This document shows positions 1 through 37,190 of a DNA stretch of 64,000 nucleotides, one piece after another. Made by a program: the position numbers and the translations under genes. The stretch lies in the NCBI GenBank assembly GCA_026393675.1, contig JAPKZQ010000006.1:1-64000 (forward strand), written 5' to 3'. Under the pieces are notes generated by a model. That model searched no databases. It was given only the letters and a program-made list of their open reading frames with translations, and had not been told where the DNA came from. The first letter of the stretch is position 1; every line of letters begins with the position of its first letter. This stretch comes from Acidobacteriota bacterium. GTDB lineage: Bacteria; Acidobacteriota; Vicinamibacteria; Vicinamibacterales; JAKQTR01.

Positions 1-116
1 AAGGCATACTCGGTGAACGTCGAGGGAAGCCGTATGCGGGAAATCCGCACGTACGGTTTGACGAGGGGTTGCTGGTCCGTGCGTGATTCCACGGCGGACT
101 GGGGCCTACTCCACCC
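1..116 (+). mobile_element. Group II intron 3' end (domains V and VI), truncated by window edge
   Basis: Positions 27-59 form the highly conserved domain V hairpin. The arm AAGCCGTATGCGG is followed by a GAAA loop and the complementary arm CCGCACGTACGGTTT, and the catalytic AGC triad lies at 28-30. A second stem at 75-99 (GTCCGTG with CACGGCGGAC) fits domain VI, which carries the branch-point adenosine. It is followed by CCTACTCCAC at 105-114, which resembles the usual 3' terminus of bacterial group II introns. The reverse transcriptase/maturase reading frame would lie to the left, outside the window. The intron is transcribed rightward. The exact 3' splice point (about 112-114) is inferred. 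Confidence 0.72.
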
Positions 117-13115: not shown

Positions 13116-13209
13116 GGTCACCCCTCCTCTCGTCGGGCACGAACCTCATGCCGAACGAGCGAAAAGGATGCTTTGGGGAGTTCTCGAATCGACGGGGAGC
13201 CGCGCTCCC

Positions 13210-13290
13210 GATCGCCTTCCCTACGCCGGTACTACCCGGTTCAGGTTCGAGGGTGTGATCTCAGGCCGTATGTTTGGGCCACCCCTAGGC
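13210..13290 (-). promoter_or_regulatory. TPP riboswitch (THI box)
   Basis: Read on the minus strand, the segment contains all the conserved THI-box blocks. These are AGGGGTG near 13287, CTGAGATCACACCC at about 13265-13252, GAACCTGAACCGGGTA (the T-loop and pyrophosphate-sensing region), and the closing TACCGGCGTAGGGA at about 13231-13218. The receptor gene starts about 100 bases downstream at 13115. Between them a GGGAGC/GCTCCC hairpin (about 13190-13205) and CTCCCC segments could pair with the GAGGAGGGG ribosome site. No T-rich terminator is seen, so control of translation is the likelier mechanism (inference). Confidence 0.93.
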
Positions 13291-13487
13291 GTCCTGCCAG
13301 ATTCGAGTGTCGCGCGATTGGCGCCGGGAGTCAAGGACGCCGAGTCGCAGTCACGCTCAGCCAGCCACGCTCAGCCGTTGACGCCACGCAACCGGGGCGT
13401 ATGATCGTTCCGTGTCTCATGCGTTTCGTGTCAGGGTGCCCCTGGCAGCAGAGGTCCCTGGCGCTCCGGGCGGACGAGGAAGCAACT

Positions 13488-26192: not shown

Positions 26193-29318
<3,126 letters not shown>

Positions 29319-29319
29319 G

Positions 29320-30711
29320 TCACGCCTCCGTTCGGGGAGCCGGATGATCGGGCGGTCTGCGGGTCACCCAAAACCCAATGGCCAGCACGGCAAGCCAGGG
29401 TCCGCCCGCGAGCAGGGTGATGCGGAGATCGGGCACCCACCACGTTGAGATCAAGACCGTGGCAATGGCCACGGCACCGGCGGCGGATGCGAGACGAGCG
29501 AACCGAATCCGGCGCACAAGTGTATCGATGGGCTGTGCATCATGATGGCGACGGAACGCGAGATGCGTGACGAAAATCATCAGCCACACGAACAGCGCGC
29601 CAAACAGGGCCACACCGAAGAACCAGACATAGGCGGTGACCGGCCACACCGCTCGCACGATGACCGCCGCGCCCAGGCCGACGCTCGACACGAGCAGGGC
29701 GCGCAGCGGCGTGCCGTTGATCGTGACGGCGCCGAGCCAGTGCGGCACGTACCCGCCCCGGCCAAGCGAGAACAACGTCCGCGAGATCAGGTACAGGTTG
29801 GCGTTCGCGCTGGAGAGCGCGGCGCTCAGCACGACCACGTTCATCAACGACGCGGCGGCGGGGAAGCCGACCTGGCCGAGCACTTTCACGAATGGGCTTT
29901 CGCCGACTCCCAGTTCCTGCCACGGCACGAGCCGCACGACCAGGGCGGTTGTCACCAGGTAGATGAGCGAGAGACCTGCGACGAGCCGGAAGAACGCGAC
30001 GGGGATCGTGCGTTGCGGATCGCGTGCCTCACCCGAGGTGACGCCGACGATTTCGACGCCGATAAGCGAGTAGATCACAAACGGCACCGCCAGCAGCATG
30101 CCGGAGAGTCCCATCGGGAACAGGCTCCCGGCGGCCGGGGTCACACCTGATGATGCGCCCAGCAGGCCCGTGACGAGCCCCACGCCGAGTACCACGAAGA
30201 TCGTGATGGCGACGACCTTGACCATCACAAACCAGTACTCGAACCGACCGAGCGTGGCCACGTCGCGCGAGTTCACGTAGATGAGCGCGACCGAGAAGGC
30301 GACGATCCACACCGCGCCCGGAATGGCGGGAAACCAGTAGCCCATGTAGATCGACACCGCCACCATGTGACCGCCCGTCGCGACAATCTGCATCAGCCAG
30401 TAGCTCACCCGCACGGCGTAGCCCGCAAACGGAGAGATGTACATCTCGGCATAGACGCCGAAGGACCCGGCCGTCGGATGCTGGACGCACATCTCCGTTA
30501 GCGCCGCGCCGAGCAACAGCGCCACGAAGGCGCCGATCGCATAGGAGGCGACCACCGCGGGTCCGGCAACGTTGACCGCGAGGCCGCTGCCCAGGAACAG
30601 GCCGGTACCGATCGCACCGCCCACCGCCATCATGGCCTGCTGGCCGGCGCTCAACTCACGTGAGAGCACTTGCTCGTTGCGGACGCGGGGGTCGGATGAG
30701 GAGTCAGTCAT
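29320..30711 (-). CDS. Amino-acid permease of the APC superfamily (AAT group)
   Basis: The 463-residue protein starts from the ATG at 30711. A TTG 39 bases further upstream is possible, but ATG fits the family N-terminus. It has about 12 membrane helices. The signature GGAIGTGLFLGSG (about residues 31-43) is the substrate-binding unwound helix 1 of proton-driven amino-acid permeases such as GabP, ProY and AnsP. The gene is 1 base from the kinase/M23/PLP fusion and 40 bases after metX, so it belongs to the same run. The substrate may be what the fusion enzyme consumes, or methionine-related (inference). Confidence 0.9.
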   Translation of the reverse strand: MTDSSSDPRVRNEQVLSRELSAGQQAMMAVGGAIGTGLFLGSGLAVNVAGPAVVASYAIGAFVALLLGAALTEMCVQHPTAGSFGVYAEMYISPFAGYAVRVSYWLMQIVATGGHMVAVSIYMGYWFPAIPGAVWIVAFSVALIYVNSRDVATLGRFEYWFVMVKVVAITIFVVLGVGLVTGLLGASSGVTPAAGSLFPMGLSGMLLAVPFVIYSLIGVEIVGVTSGEARDPQRTIPVAFFRLVAGLSLIYLVTTALVVRLVPWQELGVGESPFVKVLGQVGFPAAASLMNVVVLSAALSSANANLYLISRTLFSLGRGGYVPHWLGAVTINGTPLRALLVSSVGLGAAVIVRAVWPVTAYVWFFGVALFGALFVWLMIFVTHLAFRRHHDAQPIDTLVRRIRFARLASAAGAVAIATVLISTWWVPDLRITLLAGGPWLAVLAIGFWVTRRPPDHPAPRTEA

Positions 30712-30751
30712 GGGTTGCCGGACAATAGCGCGGCGCGTGATTCCCGTCAAT

Positions 30752-31879
30752 TCACCCGCAGATCCGACTCAGAAATTCCCGGACGATCGGCTGCTGCGCT
30801 TCGTGTTCAAGCAGGAACGCGTCGTGGCCGTATTCGCTCGACAGTTCGCGATACTCGGCGGTGCGACCCGCCTGTCTGAGCGCGGCGGCGACAGTGGCCA
30901 ACTGATAGGGCGGATACAACCAGTCCGACGAAAACGTCAGGAGCAGAAACGCCGCTTCGGTCGCTTCGAACGCGTCCGCCAGCGACCGACGCCCGGCCTC
31001 CAGGTCGAAGTAGTCGAGCGCCTTCGATAGGTACACCAGCGAATTAGCGTCGAAGCGATCGACGAAGCTGCGGCCCTGATAATCGAGATACCGCTCCACC
31101 TCGAACTCGGGTCCAAGGCTGTAGCCCGGGCCACTCTGTCCGAGGCGTCGCCCGAACTTCCGTTCCATTCCGGGATCGGACAGATACGTGACATGGCCAA
31201 TCATGCGCGCGACCGAGAGCCCGTCAGCCGGCCGCTCGCCATCGTAGTACTCGCCGCCGCGCCAGTTGGGATCGGCCGTGAGGGCACGGCGGGCGATCTC
31301 ATCGAACGCAATCTGCTGGGCGGAGTGCCGGTGCGTCGTGGCCAGCGCGACCACGGAACGCACGGTCTCCGGGAACGACACCGCCCATTGAAGGGCCTGC
31401 ATGCCGCCCATCGAGCCCCCAGCTACGGAGACAAGGCACGAGATGCCCAGTCGATCGACGAGCGCCTTCTGCACCCGCACCATGTCGGCAATGGTCACGA
31501 AGGGAAACCGGCTGCCATATGGACGTCCCGTGCCGGGGTCGGGCGAGGCAGGCCCCGTCGTGCCGTAGCAGCTTCCGAGGACATTGGTGCACAGGACACA
31601 GAAGCGGTCGGTGTCGAAGGCGCGCCCGGGGCCGATCGCCGCGTCCCACCAGCCTGGCTTCCGGGCGCCCGGGTGCCAGCCCGCCGCGTGCGCGCCGCCC
31701 GACAACGCGTGGCACACCAGGATGACGTTGTCTCTGGCCGCACTCATGGCGCCGTATTGCTCGAACGCGACCGTGACCGACTCCAGGCGCCGGCCGCAGT
31801 CGAGTTCAAGCCCGTCCTCGAAGACGCGCAGCGTCTCGGTCTCCACGATCCCGATACCGGCGCCAGAGGTCGTGATCAC
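30752..31879 (-). CDS. metX: Homoserine O-acetyltransferase
   Basis: The 375-residue alpha/beta-hydrolase-fold enzyme activates homoserine with acetyl-CoA (some family members use succinyl-CoA) for methionine synthesis. Seen: [13 protein letters not shown] near residue 56, the nucleophile elbow [12 protein letters not shown] (Ser about 154), the [12 protein letters not shown] substrate segment, and the catalytic histidine in SEYGHDAFL near residue 355. Its start overlaps the metY stop by 4 bases, so the product of MetX is handed to the enzyme encoded by the adjoining gene. Confidence 0.96.
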
Positions 31880-33204
31880 GCCGCCTCCGTCTCACGCCTC
31901 GCGGCGGCAATCGCCTGTTCCAGATCCGCGATCAAGTCGGCGGCGTCTTCAATGCCAATCGACAGACGGATGAAATCATCAGGCACACCGACCGCCGCGC
32001 GCTCCTCGCCCGACAACTGCTGGTGCGTCGTCGACGCCGGGTGAATCACCAGACTCTTCGCGTCGCCGATGTTCGCCAGGTGGCTGAACAGGCGTACGGA
32101 GTTGATGAACCGTTTCGCCGCCTCGAACCCTCCGCGGATGCCGAAGCCGATAATCGCGCCGGCGCCAGACGGGAAGTACCGACGCGCGCGCGCCTCGTCG
32201 GGGTGGCCGGCCAGACCCGGATAGTTCACCCACGCGACATCAGGATGCTTCTCCAGCCACTCGGCGACGCGTATCGCGTTGGCGCAGTGCGCCGCCATGC
32301 GGTATGGGAGTGTCTCGATGCCTTGGAGAAACAGGAAGGCATTGAAGGGTGACAAGCAAGCGCCGAGATCGCGCAGCCACTGCACGCGGGCCTTGGTGAT
32401 GAATGCCGCGCCCGGCGCCACCGCGCGTTCGTGGGTGCCGAACAGATCCCAGAAGACGATCCCGTGGTACGAGGGGTCCGGCTCGGTGTATTCGGGGAAC
32501 CGTCCGTTGGCCCAGTTGAAGCGGCCGGCATCCACAATGGCGCCCCCGATGGAGGTGCCATGTCCGCCCAGGAACTTCGTGAGCGAGTAGACGATGATAT
32601 CGGCGCCGTGGTCAAAGGGCTTGAAGATGTGCGGCGTCACCGTGTTGTCGACGACAAACGGCACGCCGGCGTCGTGCGCCACGCGGGCAATCGCATCGAC
32701 ATCATCCACGTTGTTCTTCGGGTTGCCGATCGATTCCGTGTACACCAGCCGGGTGTTCTCATCGATGGCACGCGCCACATTGGCCGGGTCGGATGAATCG
32801 ACGAAGCGCGTCTCGATTCCCAGGCGTTCGAGCGTGTAGTGGAACAAGTTGTACGTGCCGCCATACAGGAAGCGCGTGGAGACGATGTTCTGCCCCGTAC
32901 GGGCCAGGGCCAGCACGACCGTCGTGATGGCCGCCTGGCCGGACGCGAGGGCAAGAGCGCCGACTCCGCCGTCCAGTTCGGCCAACCGGCCTTCGAGCAC
33001 ATCGGTGGTCGGGTTGCCGATGCGTGTGTAGATGTGACCGGGCGCCTGCAGCGCGAATAGCGCCGCCGCGTGGTCCGCCGATTCGAAGACGTACGACGAG
33101 GTCTGATAGATCGGCACCGCGCGGGCGCCAACCGCGTTGTCGGGGGACTGGCCACCGTGCAGGGCCAGCGTGGCGGGACCAAACGATGAGGGAGATGTAG
33201 ACAT
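31876..33204 (-). CDS. metY: O-acetylhomoserine sulfhydrylase (aminocarboxypropyltransferase)
   Basis: From the ATG at 33204 (AGGAGG at 33217-33212, spacing 7) the product is 442 residues. It is a Cys/Met-metabolism PLP enzyme that makes homocysteine from O-acetylhomoserine and sulfide. Motifs: [20 protein letters not shown] at the N-terminus, [22 protein letters not shown], and the PLP lysine in [18 protein letters not shown] (about residue 210). Length and the long insert after the PLP lysine ([13 protein letters not shown]) fit MetY rather than MetB or MetC. It overlaps metX by 4 bases. Confidence 0.95.
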
Positions 33205-33260
33205 GAGCAATCCTCCTGGAGCACCTGCCGGGCTGTTCTGCCCGGCGGCGACGCCGCCGT

Positions 33261-34553
33261 TCATCGGTCGGCGTCAAACAGGGGCAGAGCGACCGCGCTG
33301 CGGCCGGCGCCGGCCGCCGGTCGGAACGCCTCGATCGCCCGGTTGAGTTTCAGATGGCTGCACGACGAAACAAGCGCGGCAAAGCGCGACCCGCTCGAGC
33401 AACGCTCCTGCCACACGCGTTCCGGCCTGATGCCGGCTTGGTCGAGCACGCTCGCAAGGTCGGATGCGAGTGTGGGATCGGTGACGGTCGACGGGTCCGG
33501 CAGACTGACGCGCACGTAGTGACGAGCGTCGAAGTCGCGTTCGACGCGCGTGACCGCGGTAGCCGACCACGCACGCGGTGCCACGACGCCGGCCGCAATC
33601 GCCAGCAGATCGGAGACGACGGCGATGGCCGTCGCGTCGCCCCCGGCGCCCTGGCCGGCAAACACCGTCTGGCCGCTGCGTTCGCCGCGCACGAGCACGA
33701 CGTTCTCCGACCCGTTGGCCCGAGCGAGCCACGACTGCCCATCGACCAGCGCGGGCAACACGCCGGCCGCGACGCCGCCACTACGAGCATCTGAGCGGTC
33801 GGCCCACGCGATCTGGCGCACGACGTACCCGAGTTCGTCCGCCAGCGCGTGGTCGCCCGCATCCACGGCGCGGATCGACTCGGTCGGGATATCGGCGGGC
33901 CGCAGATACCCATCGAATCCAATCGTCGCCAGGATGGCCAGTTTCGCGCGCGCATCGATCCCATCCAGATCGGCGGACGGATCCTGCTCGGCCAGTCCTC
34001 TGGCCTGCGCGTCGGCGACGGCGTCGCTCATCGACACGCGCCGCTGCGCCATTTCGGTGAGCACGAAGTTACAGGTGCCGTTGACGACACCGACGATGCG
34101 CGTGAGGTGATCGCTGCTGAGGCCGTCCTGTACGCCGCGGATTACCGGCACGACGCCGCCGACAGCCGCCTCGTACCGGAGCGACTGCCCGGTCTGCCGC
34201 GCCAGGGCGATCAGCTCTCGGCCATGCTCGGCGATCACCTGCTTGTTGGCGGTGACGACGGAACGCCCCGCGCCAAGCGCGCCTGCGATCCACGTTCGGG
34301 CCGGCTCGATGCCCCCAATCACCTCGACGAAGATGTCGGTTCCCGTCTTGATCAGCGTCTCGACATCGTCGGTCCATACGACACCGGGCGGCACCCAGCC
34401 GGCAGCGGCGCGGGCAAGCGCCACGCGGCGGGTGCAGATCCCGGCGAGACGGAGGTTGGGATGGCGCTTCTCGCACAGGATGCGTGCGACCGAGCGGCCG
34501 ACCGTGCCGAATCCGGCGAGACCGATCGTGAGTGGTGTGCGTGTAGCGCTCAT
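33261..34553 (-). CDS. hom: Homoserine dehydrogenase
   Basis: The 430-residue enzyme reduces aspartate semialdehyde to homoserine. Seen: the Rossmann motif [44 protein letters not shown] and [14 protein letters not shown] in the catalytic domain, and [24 protein letters not shown]. The C-terminal part (about 340-430) looks like a weak ACT-type regulatory domain, [14 protein letters not shown] being its first strand. Its start overlaps the stop of the truncated aspartokinase by 4 bases. In the transcript it lies between asd and metY, so the operon runs from aspartyl phosphate to homocysteine. Confidence 0.95.
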
Positions 34554-34969
34554 GCCCAGATCTCCTGCGATGCTGCGGTCAGACCGGTCCTGATGGCGGC
34601 GCCCGCCGCTTCGCCTCCGTGTCCGGTGGAGTCGCGCCCAGTGCCGACTCCCACTCCGCTGCGCTCGTGCTCGAAGAACCGAGCGTGTAGCTGGGACATC
34701 GCGCGAACCACTCTTCGTTCTGCGACCACGACGGCGAGGTGGCAGGCGCCCGGAGCGTGGACGACCAGATGCAGTGGAATGCCCTCGAGCGCGCGTGCAG
34801 GGTTGCCGCGCTCAGCGAGACGTCCGATTTCGATCAGCACGTCGGTCACGCCAGCCAGAGCCGACACGACCACACCCTGGGGCCGCCGCTCGCGCGCGAC
34901 GATCGTGGCGACGCGGTCGATCGCCGCGGAGTGAGCGACCGACGAGCCTCCGAATTTCAGGATTACCAT
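34550..34969 (-). pseudogene. Internally deleted aspartokinase (N-terminus joined to C-terminal ACT part)
   Basis: The frame encodes 139 residues. Residues 1-57 match the N-terminus of aspartokinases (MVILKFGGSSVAHSAAIDRV, then GVVVSALAGVTDVLIEI). Residues about 59-102 match the last ACT module of the same enzyme (ALEGIPLHLVVHAPGACHLAVVV, AMSQLHARFFE). About 300-350 residues that would hold the aspartate site and most of the regulatory region are missing. The tail from 103 is Gly/Ala-rich. The frame is open, overlaps asd by 7 bases and hom by 4 bases, and is thus still translationally coupled. Catalysis is very unlikely. It may be a relic, or a free ACT peptide with a regulatory job. Another aspartokinase must exist elsewhere. 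Confidence 0.75.
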
Positions 34970-36030
34970 GGGGTCACTCCGTCCAGCAGCCAGCCGTCGT
35001 GGGCCAACAGTTCAGCGTTGAGAATGGCGGCGCCTGCGGCGCCTCGCACGGCGTTGTGGCCCAGCGCGACCAGCTTGTAATCGAGTACCGGGCAGCGGCG
35101 GAGGCGTCCGACCGACACCGCCATCCCGTTCTCGCGGCCGGCATCGAGGCGTGGTTGTGGTCGGTTTGCTTCCGAGAGGTAGACGATGGGATGACGCGGT
35201 GCCGTGGGGAGATCGGCGGCCTGCGGGCGCCCCGAAAACCCCGCGAGCGCTGCGATCAGATCCTGACTATCGGGCGCGGAGTCGAACGCGATAGAAATCG
35301 ACTCTGTGTGGCCGTCGGCGACGGGCACGCGGGTGGCCTGTGCGCTGACCGCCACCGGGTGGTCCACCACCCGGCCACGATCGATGACGCCGAGGATCTT
35401 CGGCGTTTCGGTTTCGATCTTCTCGTCCTCGCCGTCGATGAACGGCACGACGTTGCCGAGCAGGTCCCACGACGCGACGCCCGGGTACCCGGCGCCGGAC
35501 GCGGCCTGGAGCGTCGTGACCAGGGCGCGCCGCGGACCGAAAGGTCGGCAGGCCGCGAGGACCATGGCCAGGAACACCGTGGAGCAGTTCGGGTTCGTGA
35601 CGATGGCGCCCCGCCAGTTGCGAGCGCGGCGCTGGGTGGCGACAAGCGAGAGGTGGTCCGGGTTGATCTCGGGCACCACCAACGGCACGTCGGCGTCGAG
35701 CCGGTGGGTGCTGGCGTTGCTCACCACGACGTGGCCCGCGGCGGCAAACGCCGGCTCGAGCTGCGCCGCCACCGTCGCGTCGAGCGCGGAGAACACGAGG
35801 TGCGTGGCCCGTCCCGGGATCGGCCGTTGGATCTCGAGATCCCTCGCCGAATCAGGTATCGGATCAGCGAGTCGCCACGGCTGGTCACCGTATCGCTGGC
35901 CTGCAGAACGCTCGCCTGCCGCCAGCCACCTCACCCTGAACCAGGGGTGGCCCGCGAGCCGGCGGACCAGATGCTGTCCCACCATCCCCGTGGCGCCGAG
36001 AATGCCGACGTCCCAGCCTGTCTGCGTCAT
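34963..36030 (-). CDS. asd: Aspartate-semialdehyde dehydrogenase
   Basis: The 355-residue enzyme reduces aspartyl phosphate to the semialdehyde, the branch precursor of lysine, threonine and methionine. Seen: the Rossmann motif GILGATGMVGQHLVRRL, the catalytic cysteine in VTNPNCSTVFLAM (about residue 149), LQAASGAGYPGV, and a C-terminal NAVRGAAGAAILNAE. The NPNCST context and length match the archaeal/fungal type rather than the E. coli type. It is the first structural gene after the attenuator, about 50 bases after the terminator, with AGGAG near 36043. Confidence 0.94.
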   Translation of the reverse strand: MTQTGWDVGILGATGMVGQHLVRRLAGHPWFRVRWLAAGERSAGQRYGDQPWRLADPIPDSARDLEIQRPIPGRATHLVFSALDATVAAQLEPAFAAAGHVVVSNASTHRLDADVPLVVPEINPDHLSLVATQRRARNWRGAIVTNPNCSTVFLAMVLAACRPFGPRRALVTTLQAASGAGYPGVASWDLLGNVVPFIDGEDEKIETETPKILGVIDRGRVVDHPVAVSAQATRVPVADGHTESISIAFDSAPDSQDLIAALAGFSGRPQAADLPTAPRHPIVYLSEANRPQPRLDAGRENGMAVSVGRLRRCPVLDYKLVALGHNAVRGAAGAAILNAELLAHDGWLLDGVTPW

Positions 36031-36081: not shown

Positions 36082-36118
36082 AAAAAACCCGCCGACTGGC
36101 TGCCCAGGTCGGCGGGTT
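36082..36118 (-). terminator. Intrinsic terminator of the methionine attenuator
   Basis: On the minus strand, AACCCGCCGAC (36118-36108) pairs perfectly over 11 bp with GTCGGCGGGTT (36096-36086). The inner part of the loop adds three more pairs around one bulge. A run of six T (36087-36082) follows directly. It lies between the leader peptide and asd. Its 5' arm is also the 3' partner of the antiterminator at 36109-36179, so the two structures cannot coexist. Confidence 0.9.
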
Positions 36119-36179
36119 CTCGTGGTCCGTATGGTCTCAGGTCTGCTGTGCTAAGGGCCGGACACGATCCTCCCACCGA
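36109..36179 (-). promoter_or_regulatory. Antiterminator hairpin overlapping the terminator
   Basis: In the minus-strand transcript TCGGTGGG (36179-36172), right after the Met codons of the leader, pairs with CCCGCCGA (36116-36109) over 8 bp with one G-U. The adjacent CGTGTCCG (36166-36159) pairs with CGGACCACG (36129-36121) over 8 bp with one bulged C. An internal loop of 5 by 4 bases separates the two helices. The 3' arm includes eight bases of the terminator 5' arm. A ribosome at the leader stop codon (36153-36151) would cover the 5' arm and let the terminator form. A ribosome stalled on the Met codons would leave it free. Confidence 0.85.
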
Positions 36180-36252
36180 TGCTGGTCATTCGCATGGCCA
36201 TCATCGGCATGGACATCGTGGCCGGGCGAGGGGAGAGGAACCGTGTTGCCAT
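36151..36252 (-). CDS. Met-rich leader peptide of the asd-hom-met operon
   Basis: The frame encodes 33 residues. Residues 13-22 are MSMPMMAMRM, six methionines in ten codons (36216-36187), followed by TSIGGRIVSGP and TAG. The sequence matches the design of classical amino-acid leader peptides: a dense run of the regulatory codon placed just before an antiterminator arm. The ATG at 36252 lies 10 bases from the -10 box and has no Shine-Dalgarno site, so the mRNA is probably leaderless or nearly so. ATG 36216 is an alternative start, also without a ribosome site. Methionine is the sensed amino acid (inference); three Thr codons are also present. Confidence 0.82.
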   Translation of the reverse strand: MATRFLSPRPATMSMPMMAMRMTSIGGRIVSGP

Positions 36253-36262
36253 CTGAGGAAGG

Positions 36263-36292
36263 AGTCTACCGGACAGCAGAGAGGTCTGTCAA
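36263..36292 (-). promoter_or_regulatory. Sigma-70-type promoter for the attenuator and operon
   Basis: On the minus strand a perfect -35 box TTGACA (36292-36287) is followed after 18 bases by TAGACT (36268-36263), which matches 4 of 6 positions of the -10 consensus. The predicted transcript start (about 36256-36252) falls on or just before the leader ATG. Confidence 0.7.
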
Positions 36293-36539
36293 CAGATTTG
36301 TATCCACGTATATCTATCCATGGATGTTGAGGACAGAACGGGCTCGGCCGCAGCATGTCGTGACCTTGCGTCCACTGCCGCACGGCCGATAATGCTGAAG
36401 TCTTGGTATGCTGTCGCCCTGAGGTAACCGCCATGGCTCTGCGTCGAGTGGTCCACGAACCGTTTCACGTCGAACCCCATCTGCTCGGCCAGCCGCGGGC
36501 TTCGGCCCGATAAGCGAGAATACGAACACGGTACGCGTG

Positions 36540-37190
36540 ATGAATCACTTGATGCTCTTCTTGTTCGCGCTCGGGCTTGGGGTCGTCGCCGCGATCCCCC
36601 CGGGCGGTTGTCAGGTGGAGATGGCCAAGCGTGCGGTTGGGGGGCACCTGCACGCCGCATGGATGGTCGTGTGCGGCTCGGTCACCTCCGATCTGATCTA
36701 TGGAGCGATCGCCCTGTTTGGCGTGGCGCCGTTTCTCGAGTACCCGCGAGTGTCGTTGGCGTTCAAGGTGGTGGGAGCCGTGCTCCTGTGGGTGCTGGCG
36801 TATCTGACCTATCAACAGTCGCGGCATCCTCAACACCTGGCGCTGGCCAATTCCGCGTTGAAGAGCCGGCGCTGGGCGTATCTGACCGGGTTCTCGCTGG
36901 GGTTGAGCAATCTCCCGATCGTGCTGAGCTGGTTGCTGGGCGTGTCATTGGCGCGCCAGATGGGGCTGGCTTCCCCGTTGACCAGCCCGTCGAAGATCGT
37001 GTTCCTGGCCGGAGTCGCTGCCGGACTTGGCAGCTATCTCTCCGTACTGGCGGTCGTCTTGCACCGCGCCAAGCACTCCATCCCGGTCCATGCGCTGGGG
37101 CGCGTGTATTACTGGCTTGGGATCGCGCTCTTCTGCCTCTCGTTTTACTTTCTCTACGGCGTCGTGAAGTACTTCAATCCGGCCATCTGA
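36540..37190 (+). CDS. LysE/RhtB-family amino-acid exporter
   Basis: The 216-residue inner-membrane protein has about six helices. The N-terminal motif FALGLGVVAAIPPGGCQVEMAKRA corresponds to the family signature (GxxxxxxPGP...). Members export lysine, homoserine, threonine and similar amino acids. GTG 36537 directly abuts ATG 36540; no strong ribosome site distinguishes them. It is transcribed divergently from the asd-met operon, with the attenuator promoter between, so an exporter of homoserine, threonine or methionine is plausible (inference). The bases between 36293 and 36539 hold no gene that I can see. Confidence 0.8.
   Translation: MNHLMLFLFALGLGVVAAIPPGGCQVEMAKRAVGGHLHAAWMVVCGSVTSDLIYGAIALFGVAPFLEYPRVSLAFKVVGAVLLWVLAYLTYQQSRHPQHLALANSALKSRRWAYLTGFSLGLSNLPIVLSWLLGVSLARQMGLASPLTSPSKIVFLAGVAAGLGSYLSVLAVVLHRAKHSIPVHALGRVYYWLGIALFCLSFYFLYGVVKYFNPAI

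Follow-up and report, generated by a model that had tools for sequence, protein, structure and literature searches.

Attenuation by ribosome stalling on a leader peptide is known for amino acids other than methionine, and the control of methionine synthesis has been described in terms of SAM riboswitches, T-boxes or repressors. PMC2659441, citing Vitreschak et al. 2004, describes leader-peptide attenuators of Proteobacteria for trp, thr, his, leu, ilv and phe. In a further survey (PMC1262725), histidine, threonine and phenylalanine are linked to attenuators, and methionine and lysine to riboswitches; it saw no RNA structures in front of methionine operons and points to S-box riboswitch control of methionine genes in other species. 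Predicted acidobacterial attenuators have been reported with almost no assigned function (PMC2965389). Met-codon attenuation is apparently undescribed so far, as an earlier sequence-only reading of the locus studied here had supposed: no Met-codon leader attenuator was found in the open literature (subscription journals lie outside this scope, and priority is not certain).

We analyzed a stretch of 64,000 nucleotides (the window) from the genome of a soil-type acidobacterium (3.25 Mb in 46 contigs), hereafter G000. The same reading had judged this genome to be of acidobacterial type, and its nearest named relatives are indeed Vicinamibacterales and other acidobacterial MAGs. On the minus strand, upstream of asd, lies what we consider highly likely to be a ribosome-mediated transcription attenuator that responds to the charging of elongator Met-tRNA and regulates a met operon. 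The parts proposed here were a promoter, a 33-codon leader, a Met run, an antiterminator in two parts and a terminator followed by T6, and all of them lie where they had been placed (Table 1).

Table 1. Features of the predicted attenuator and the adjacent genes, in window positions
Feature	Positions	Strand	Details
-35 hexamer	36287..36292	-	TTGACA; from sequence
-10 hexamer	36263..36268	-	TAGACT; spacer to -35 of 18 nt
Predicted leader peptide ORF	36151..36252	-	33 codons, MATRFLSPRPATMSMPMMAMRMTSIGGRIVSGP, then stop; homologous Met leaders in G001-G004 and G089
Met run	36187..36216	-	6 Met in 10 codons; proposed stall codons
Predicted protector (1:2) hairpin	36175..36208	-	Met codon region with arm 2 core; MFE fold with ribosome footprint at stop codon
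Antiterminator arm 2	36159..36179	-	core 36179-36172, distal half 36167-36159
Antiterminator arm 3	36109..36129	-	distal half 36129-36120, core 36116-36109
Intrinsic terminator hairpin, then T6 tract	36082..36118	-	about -27 kcal/mol
asd, aspartate-semialdehyde dehydrogenase	34963..36030	-	TIGR00978 type
Truncated aspartokinase	34550..34969	-	~60 N-terminal residues recognisable; between asd and hom
hom, homoserine dehydrogenase	33261..34553	-	
metY, O-acetylhomoserine sulfhydrylase	31876..33264	-	TIGR01326
metX, homoserine O-acetyltransferase	30752..31879	-	NF001209
Divergent ORF 5' of the attenuator	36537-37190	+	

The four genes named by the sequence-only reading (asd-hom-metY-metX) were correctly identified, but the list was incomplete, as a truncated aspartokinase gene also lies between asd and hom; lysC is full-length at the corresponding operon position in G002, G003 and G089. 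Since the upstream neighbour is divergent, the terminator can act on the asd-metX operon alone. Downstream, metX is followed with almost no gap by an amino acid permease gene (29320-30750, minus strand) and then by a 1041-aa fusion ORF (26193-29318, minus strand) in which kinase, M23 peptidase and aminotransferase parts seem recognisable by eye; both may belong to the met operon. Elsewhere in the window there are a TPP riboswitch (13201-13296, minus strand) and a group II intron match (25-114, plus strand).

The -35 hexamer TTGACA recurs in G001, G002, G003, G004 and G089, and reads TTGACG in G034 and G051. The leader starts at an ATG (36252) 10 nt past the -10 hexamer and ends at a TAG stop (36153-36151). 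The corresponding distance from the -10 is about 10-11 nt in units of the window's own family (f1) and in those built like them, and 7-8 nt in the first units of the second family (f11). Spacings as short as ~7-11 nt imply a leaderless or nearly leaderless mRNA, from which the Met leader is probably translated. Its Met codons are nos. 13, 15, 17, 18, 20 and 22. The proposed density of six Met in ten codons was confirmed: this leader is the sole site with at least six Met in ten codons in all six frames of the 64 kb, and none of 200 dinucleotide shuffles of the window attains even five. Just 5' of the -35 there is an AT-rich, partly palindromic element (~36298-36325, minus strand), with comparable AT-rich stretches in G001, G003, G004 and G089; it could be an UP element or an operator and provide a second layer of control.

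The antiterminator consists of an 8-bp core (TCGGTGGG/CCCGCCGA) and a distal helix of 9 bp that contains a single bulge. Its arm 3 core also forms part of the 5' arm of the terminator. The folding of the two alternative states agreed in part with the logic that had been proposed by analogy with trp and thr. With a ribosome placed on Met 13-18 and the terminator 3' arm absent from the RNA, 13 of the 17 bases of the terminator 5' arm are found in the antiterminator. In equilibrium folds of the full-length RNA the terminator is more stable in nearly every unit, even with a stalled ribosome, and antitermination must therefore be kinetic. The state at the stop codon depends on the footprint assumed. 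The proposed anatomy, its specificity for Met and its association with met operons held up in nine genomes of two families; the masking of arm 2 calls for a refinement, since a ribosome at the stop codon covers mainly its distal half. The core would best be hidden by the protector hairpin formed with the Met codons, like the 1:2 pairing of trp, and the proposed scheme as a whole follows the 1:2 / 2:3 / 3:4 pairings of trp. In G000 this hairpin holds the arm 2 core when the ribosome at the stop codon is given a 20-nt upstream footprint, whereas with 17 nt the antiterminator core still forms in silico. Protector-type hairpins also appear in the folds of G001, G024 and G034.

Complementarity of the core arms exceeds that of mononucleotide shuffles at the G000 locus alone (p=0.046) and in 11 units combined (Fisher 8e-8, over units that are related and non-independent). 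Swaps of the distal arms gave a weak result (p=0.08, again with mononucleotide shuffles), and swaps of whole-arm duplexes showed weak specificity because the sequence is GC-rich. Across the units measured, the arm 2 core (7-10 bp) begins 3-13 nt past the last Met codon, and in ten units the terminator lies 20-32 nt past the stop codon of the leader. The U tract is poor at the G001 and G003 terminators. Covariation in the helices had been put forward as a check, and here the outcome is mixed: the second of the tandem units in f11 has an unrelated core helix (GCGGATGAC/GTCATCCGC), but in the family that can be aligned the cores hardly vary, and covariation there is weak. Tool-based pair counting was left out because MAFFT misaligns the distal arms.

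From these parts we infer a start, an order of events and a sign of response as follows. RNA polymerase would start just 5' of the leader ATG or at it, and a ribosome would enter the Met-rich leader. When Met-tRNA is scarce, the ribosome would stall in the Met run and keep the hairpin between the Met codons and arm 2 open; the free arm 2 would then pair with arm 3 before the terminator 3' arm exists, and transcription would read through into asd-hom-metY-metX. When Met-tRNA is plentiful, the ribosome would reach the stop codon, the Met-codon hairpin would re-form behind it and hide the arm 2 core, the ribosome itself would cover the distal half, and the terminator would form.

Altogether, twelve Met leader/terminator units were found in nine genomes of the two families. 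Conservation of the Met codons in related genomes had also been named as a check, and units are present in all five f1 genomes examined, in G089 and in three f11 genomes (G024, G034 and G051), which carry two complete units in tandem before hom-metY-metX. Most leaders contain five to eight Met codons, those of G004 and G089 just two internal ones. The Met stretch reads MRMMAMRMT in G002 and G003 and MTSMRR in G004. In G001, from the same genus as G000, the leader is MMVMRMLVMRMT, with the Met positions shifted and the count at six in both. The first gene after the unit is asd in G000, G002, G003, G004 and G089, hom in G024, G034 and G051, and metY in G001; the predicted unit tracks the met operon and not whichever gene comes first. 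For G004 the link between leader and asd is drawn from a contig that ends inside asd, and the G089 locus (L206) is the same locus as L031 from a Vicinamibacterales MAG. The unit of G001 came to light through an architecture pattern of arms and terminator that is blind to the leader codons. It matched all five f1 genomes, plus G089 and G024 of f11. One further match, in G090, is a leader with Lys codons that precedes a different asd, and of the other matches two were inspected, neither of them leader-like. Taken together, the unit is very probably a conserved, Met-specific leader-peptide attenuator.

Met runs elsewhere, taken as controls, were negative. In 12 genomes of f1 and f11, the MxMxMxM runs sampled outside the hom leaders lie in ordinary proteins or terminator-less ORFs. 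When 396 genomes of the phylum were scanned for MxMxMxMxM, 30 sampled runs included no leader with a strong terminator and gave no sign of a wider spread, this pattern being insensitive enough to miss the G000 locus itself. The metX-metY operons retrieved from other families of the order had no Met leader with a terminator. At L187, L188 and L190, loci of f4 genomes, short ORFs that contain several Cys codons (for example MRRCAFTGPCRGCLQ...) precede metY-metX, with no clear terminator.

Other families of the order have asd as the first gene of asd-lysC-dapB-dapA-dapD/dapE operons. The leaders of these operons lie 4-13 nt past a -10-like element and are followed, after 20-41 nt, by a similar terminator; they show a recurrent Arg-Lys-Arg with Lys codons and, in several cases, Thr/Ile runs. 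For instance, the loci L114-L150 upstream of asd and L292 (in G090) share a conserved Arg-Lys-Arg (CGAAAGCG), to which f4 adds a Thr/Ile run. The average leader contains 5.5 Met in met operons versus 0.6 in dap operons (p about 4e-6) and 0.1 Lys versus 2.1 (p about 6e-6). These p-values overstate independence, given leaders that are related to one another and a Met set that owes part of its members to a search by Met codons; the direction of this contrast between the predicted leaders of the two operon types is clear. The leaders of asd-lysC-dap operons look like Lys or Thr attenuators, and relatives of G000 appear to carry the attenuator with lysine in place of methionine codons at operons for lysine synthesis. 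Leader-peptide control of lysine genes likewise seems undescribed.

The same comparison bears on what is sensed. The signal might be general translation, or initiator fMet-tRNA and formylation, with the Met run only tuning the timing of the ribosome; the apparently leaderless leader would make initiation depend directly on fMet-tRNA, and two of the units have just two internal Met codons. However, Met enrichment is confined to the met operons, the similarly built dap leaders have Lys or Thr and little Met, and the Met positions turn over between G000 and G001 while their number stays at six, which makes such a signal improbable. Sensing of elongator Met-tRNA still poses a puzzle, as the leader would report a shortage of Met although its own initiation also needs Met. 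Because initiation itself needs fMet-tRNA, a Met sensor must respond more at elongation than at initiation, and we infer that several Met codons would make elongation the more Met-sensitive step.

If the ORF were incidental, the leader RNA could instead contain a riboswitch-like aptamer that binds methionine or SAM; a terminator and an antiterminator are present, and genes of this type are usually under the control of SAM aptamers (PMC4239095). Conservation rests instead on the Met codons of one reading frame, while the arm sequences vary among units, and an Rfam search gave no riboswitch or T-box match at the attenuator region or in ten related loci; we therefore regard an aptamer as very improbable. 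The SAM-I riboswitch RF00162 had no match anywhere in the genome, and a SAM-I riboswitch at the locus was rejected. MxMxM motifs can bind Cu(I), and the ORF might encode a genuine small Met-rich protein, such as a copper-binding peptide, next to an unrelated terminator; this is extremely doubtful, as every unit found precedes a met operon, the end of the coding region overlaps an antiterminator arm, and the other Met runs sampled in the 12 genomes lack terminators. Equally hard to credit is a chance meeting of a constitutive terminator and a fortuitous Met-rich ORF, for although GC-rich DNA easily yields paired arms and the swap tests were weak, the predicted arrangement recurs in twelve units over two families, and the comparative evidence already disfavours it.

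Lys or Thr and Met leaders on otherwise similar units, matched to the operon behind them, look like a natural recoding experiment. It is about as likely as not that the Met-codon attenuators form a class that arose by recoding of a Lys/Thr-codon attenuator, or gave rise to one, when the operon behind asd changed between lysine and methionine synthesis, and that they work despite Met-dependent initiation, with two in series in some lineages.

Compared with known systems, the unit as predicted resembles the attenuators of Proteobacteria, in which a short leader ORF with many codons for the end-product amino acid likewise goes with protector, antiterminator and terminator pairings and the regulatory codons lie in the protector stem. 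It differs in its amino acid, Met, which also starts every protein, in a probable leaderless start, in the phylum, and in the tandem copies of the family related to that of G000. The trp, leu and cys leader peptides of Actinobacteria (PMC1262725) are likewise cases of leader-peptide control outside Proteobacteria. RNA-level control of met genes in Gram-negatives is shared with the terminator-antiterminator RNA of β-proteobacterial metX/metZ (PMC4239095) and the Xanthomonas met 5'UTR (PMC6230763), but these involve conserved RNA regions of another kind, and no leader peptide is mentioned for them. SAM riboswitches and Met T-boxes have the same target genes; in contrast to them, the unit has no Rfam match, and the proposed signal is codon stalling, not binding of a ligand or tRNA to the RNA. 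If true, such a codon-stalling Met sensor would extend the attenuation repertoire by an amino acid that it has lacked.
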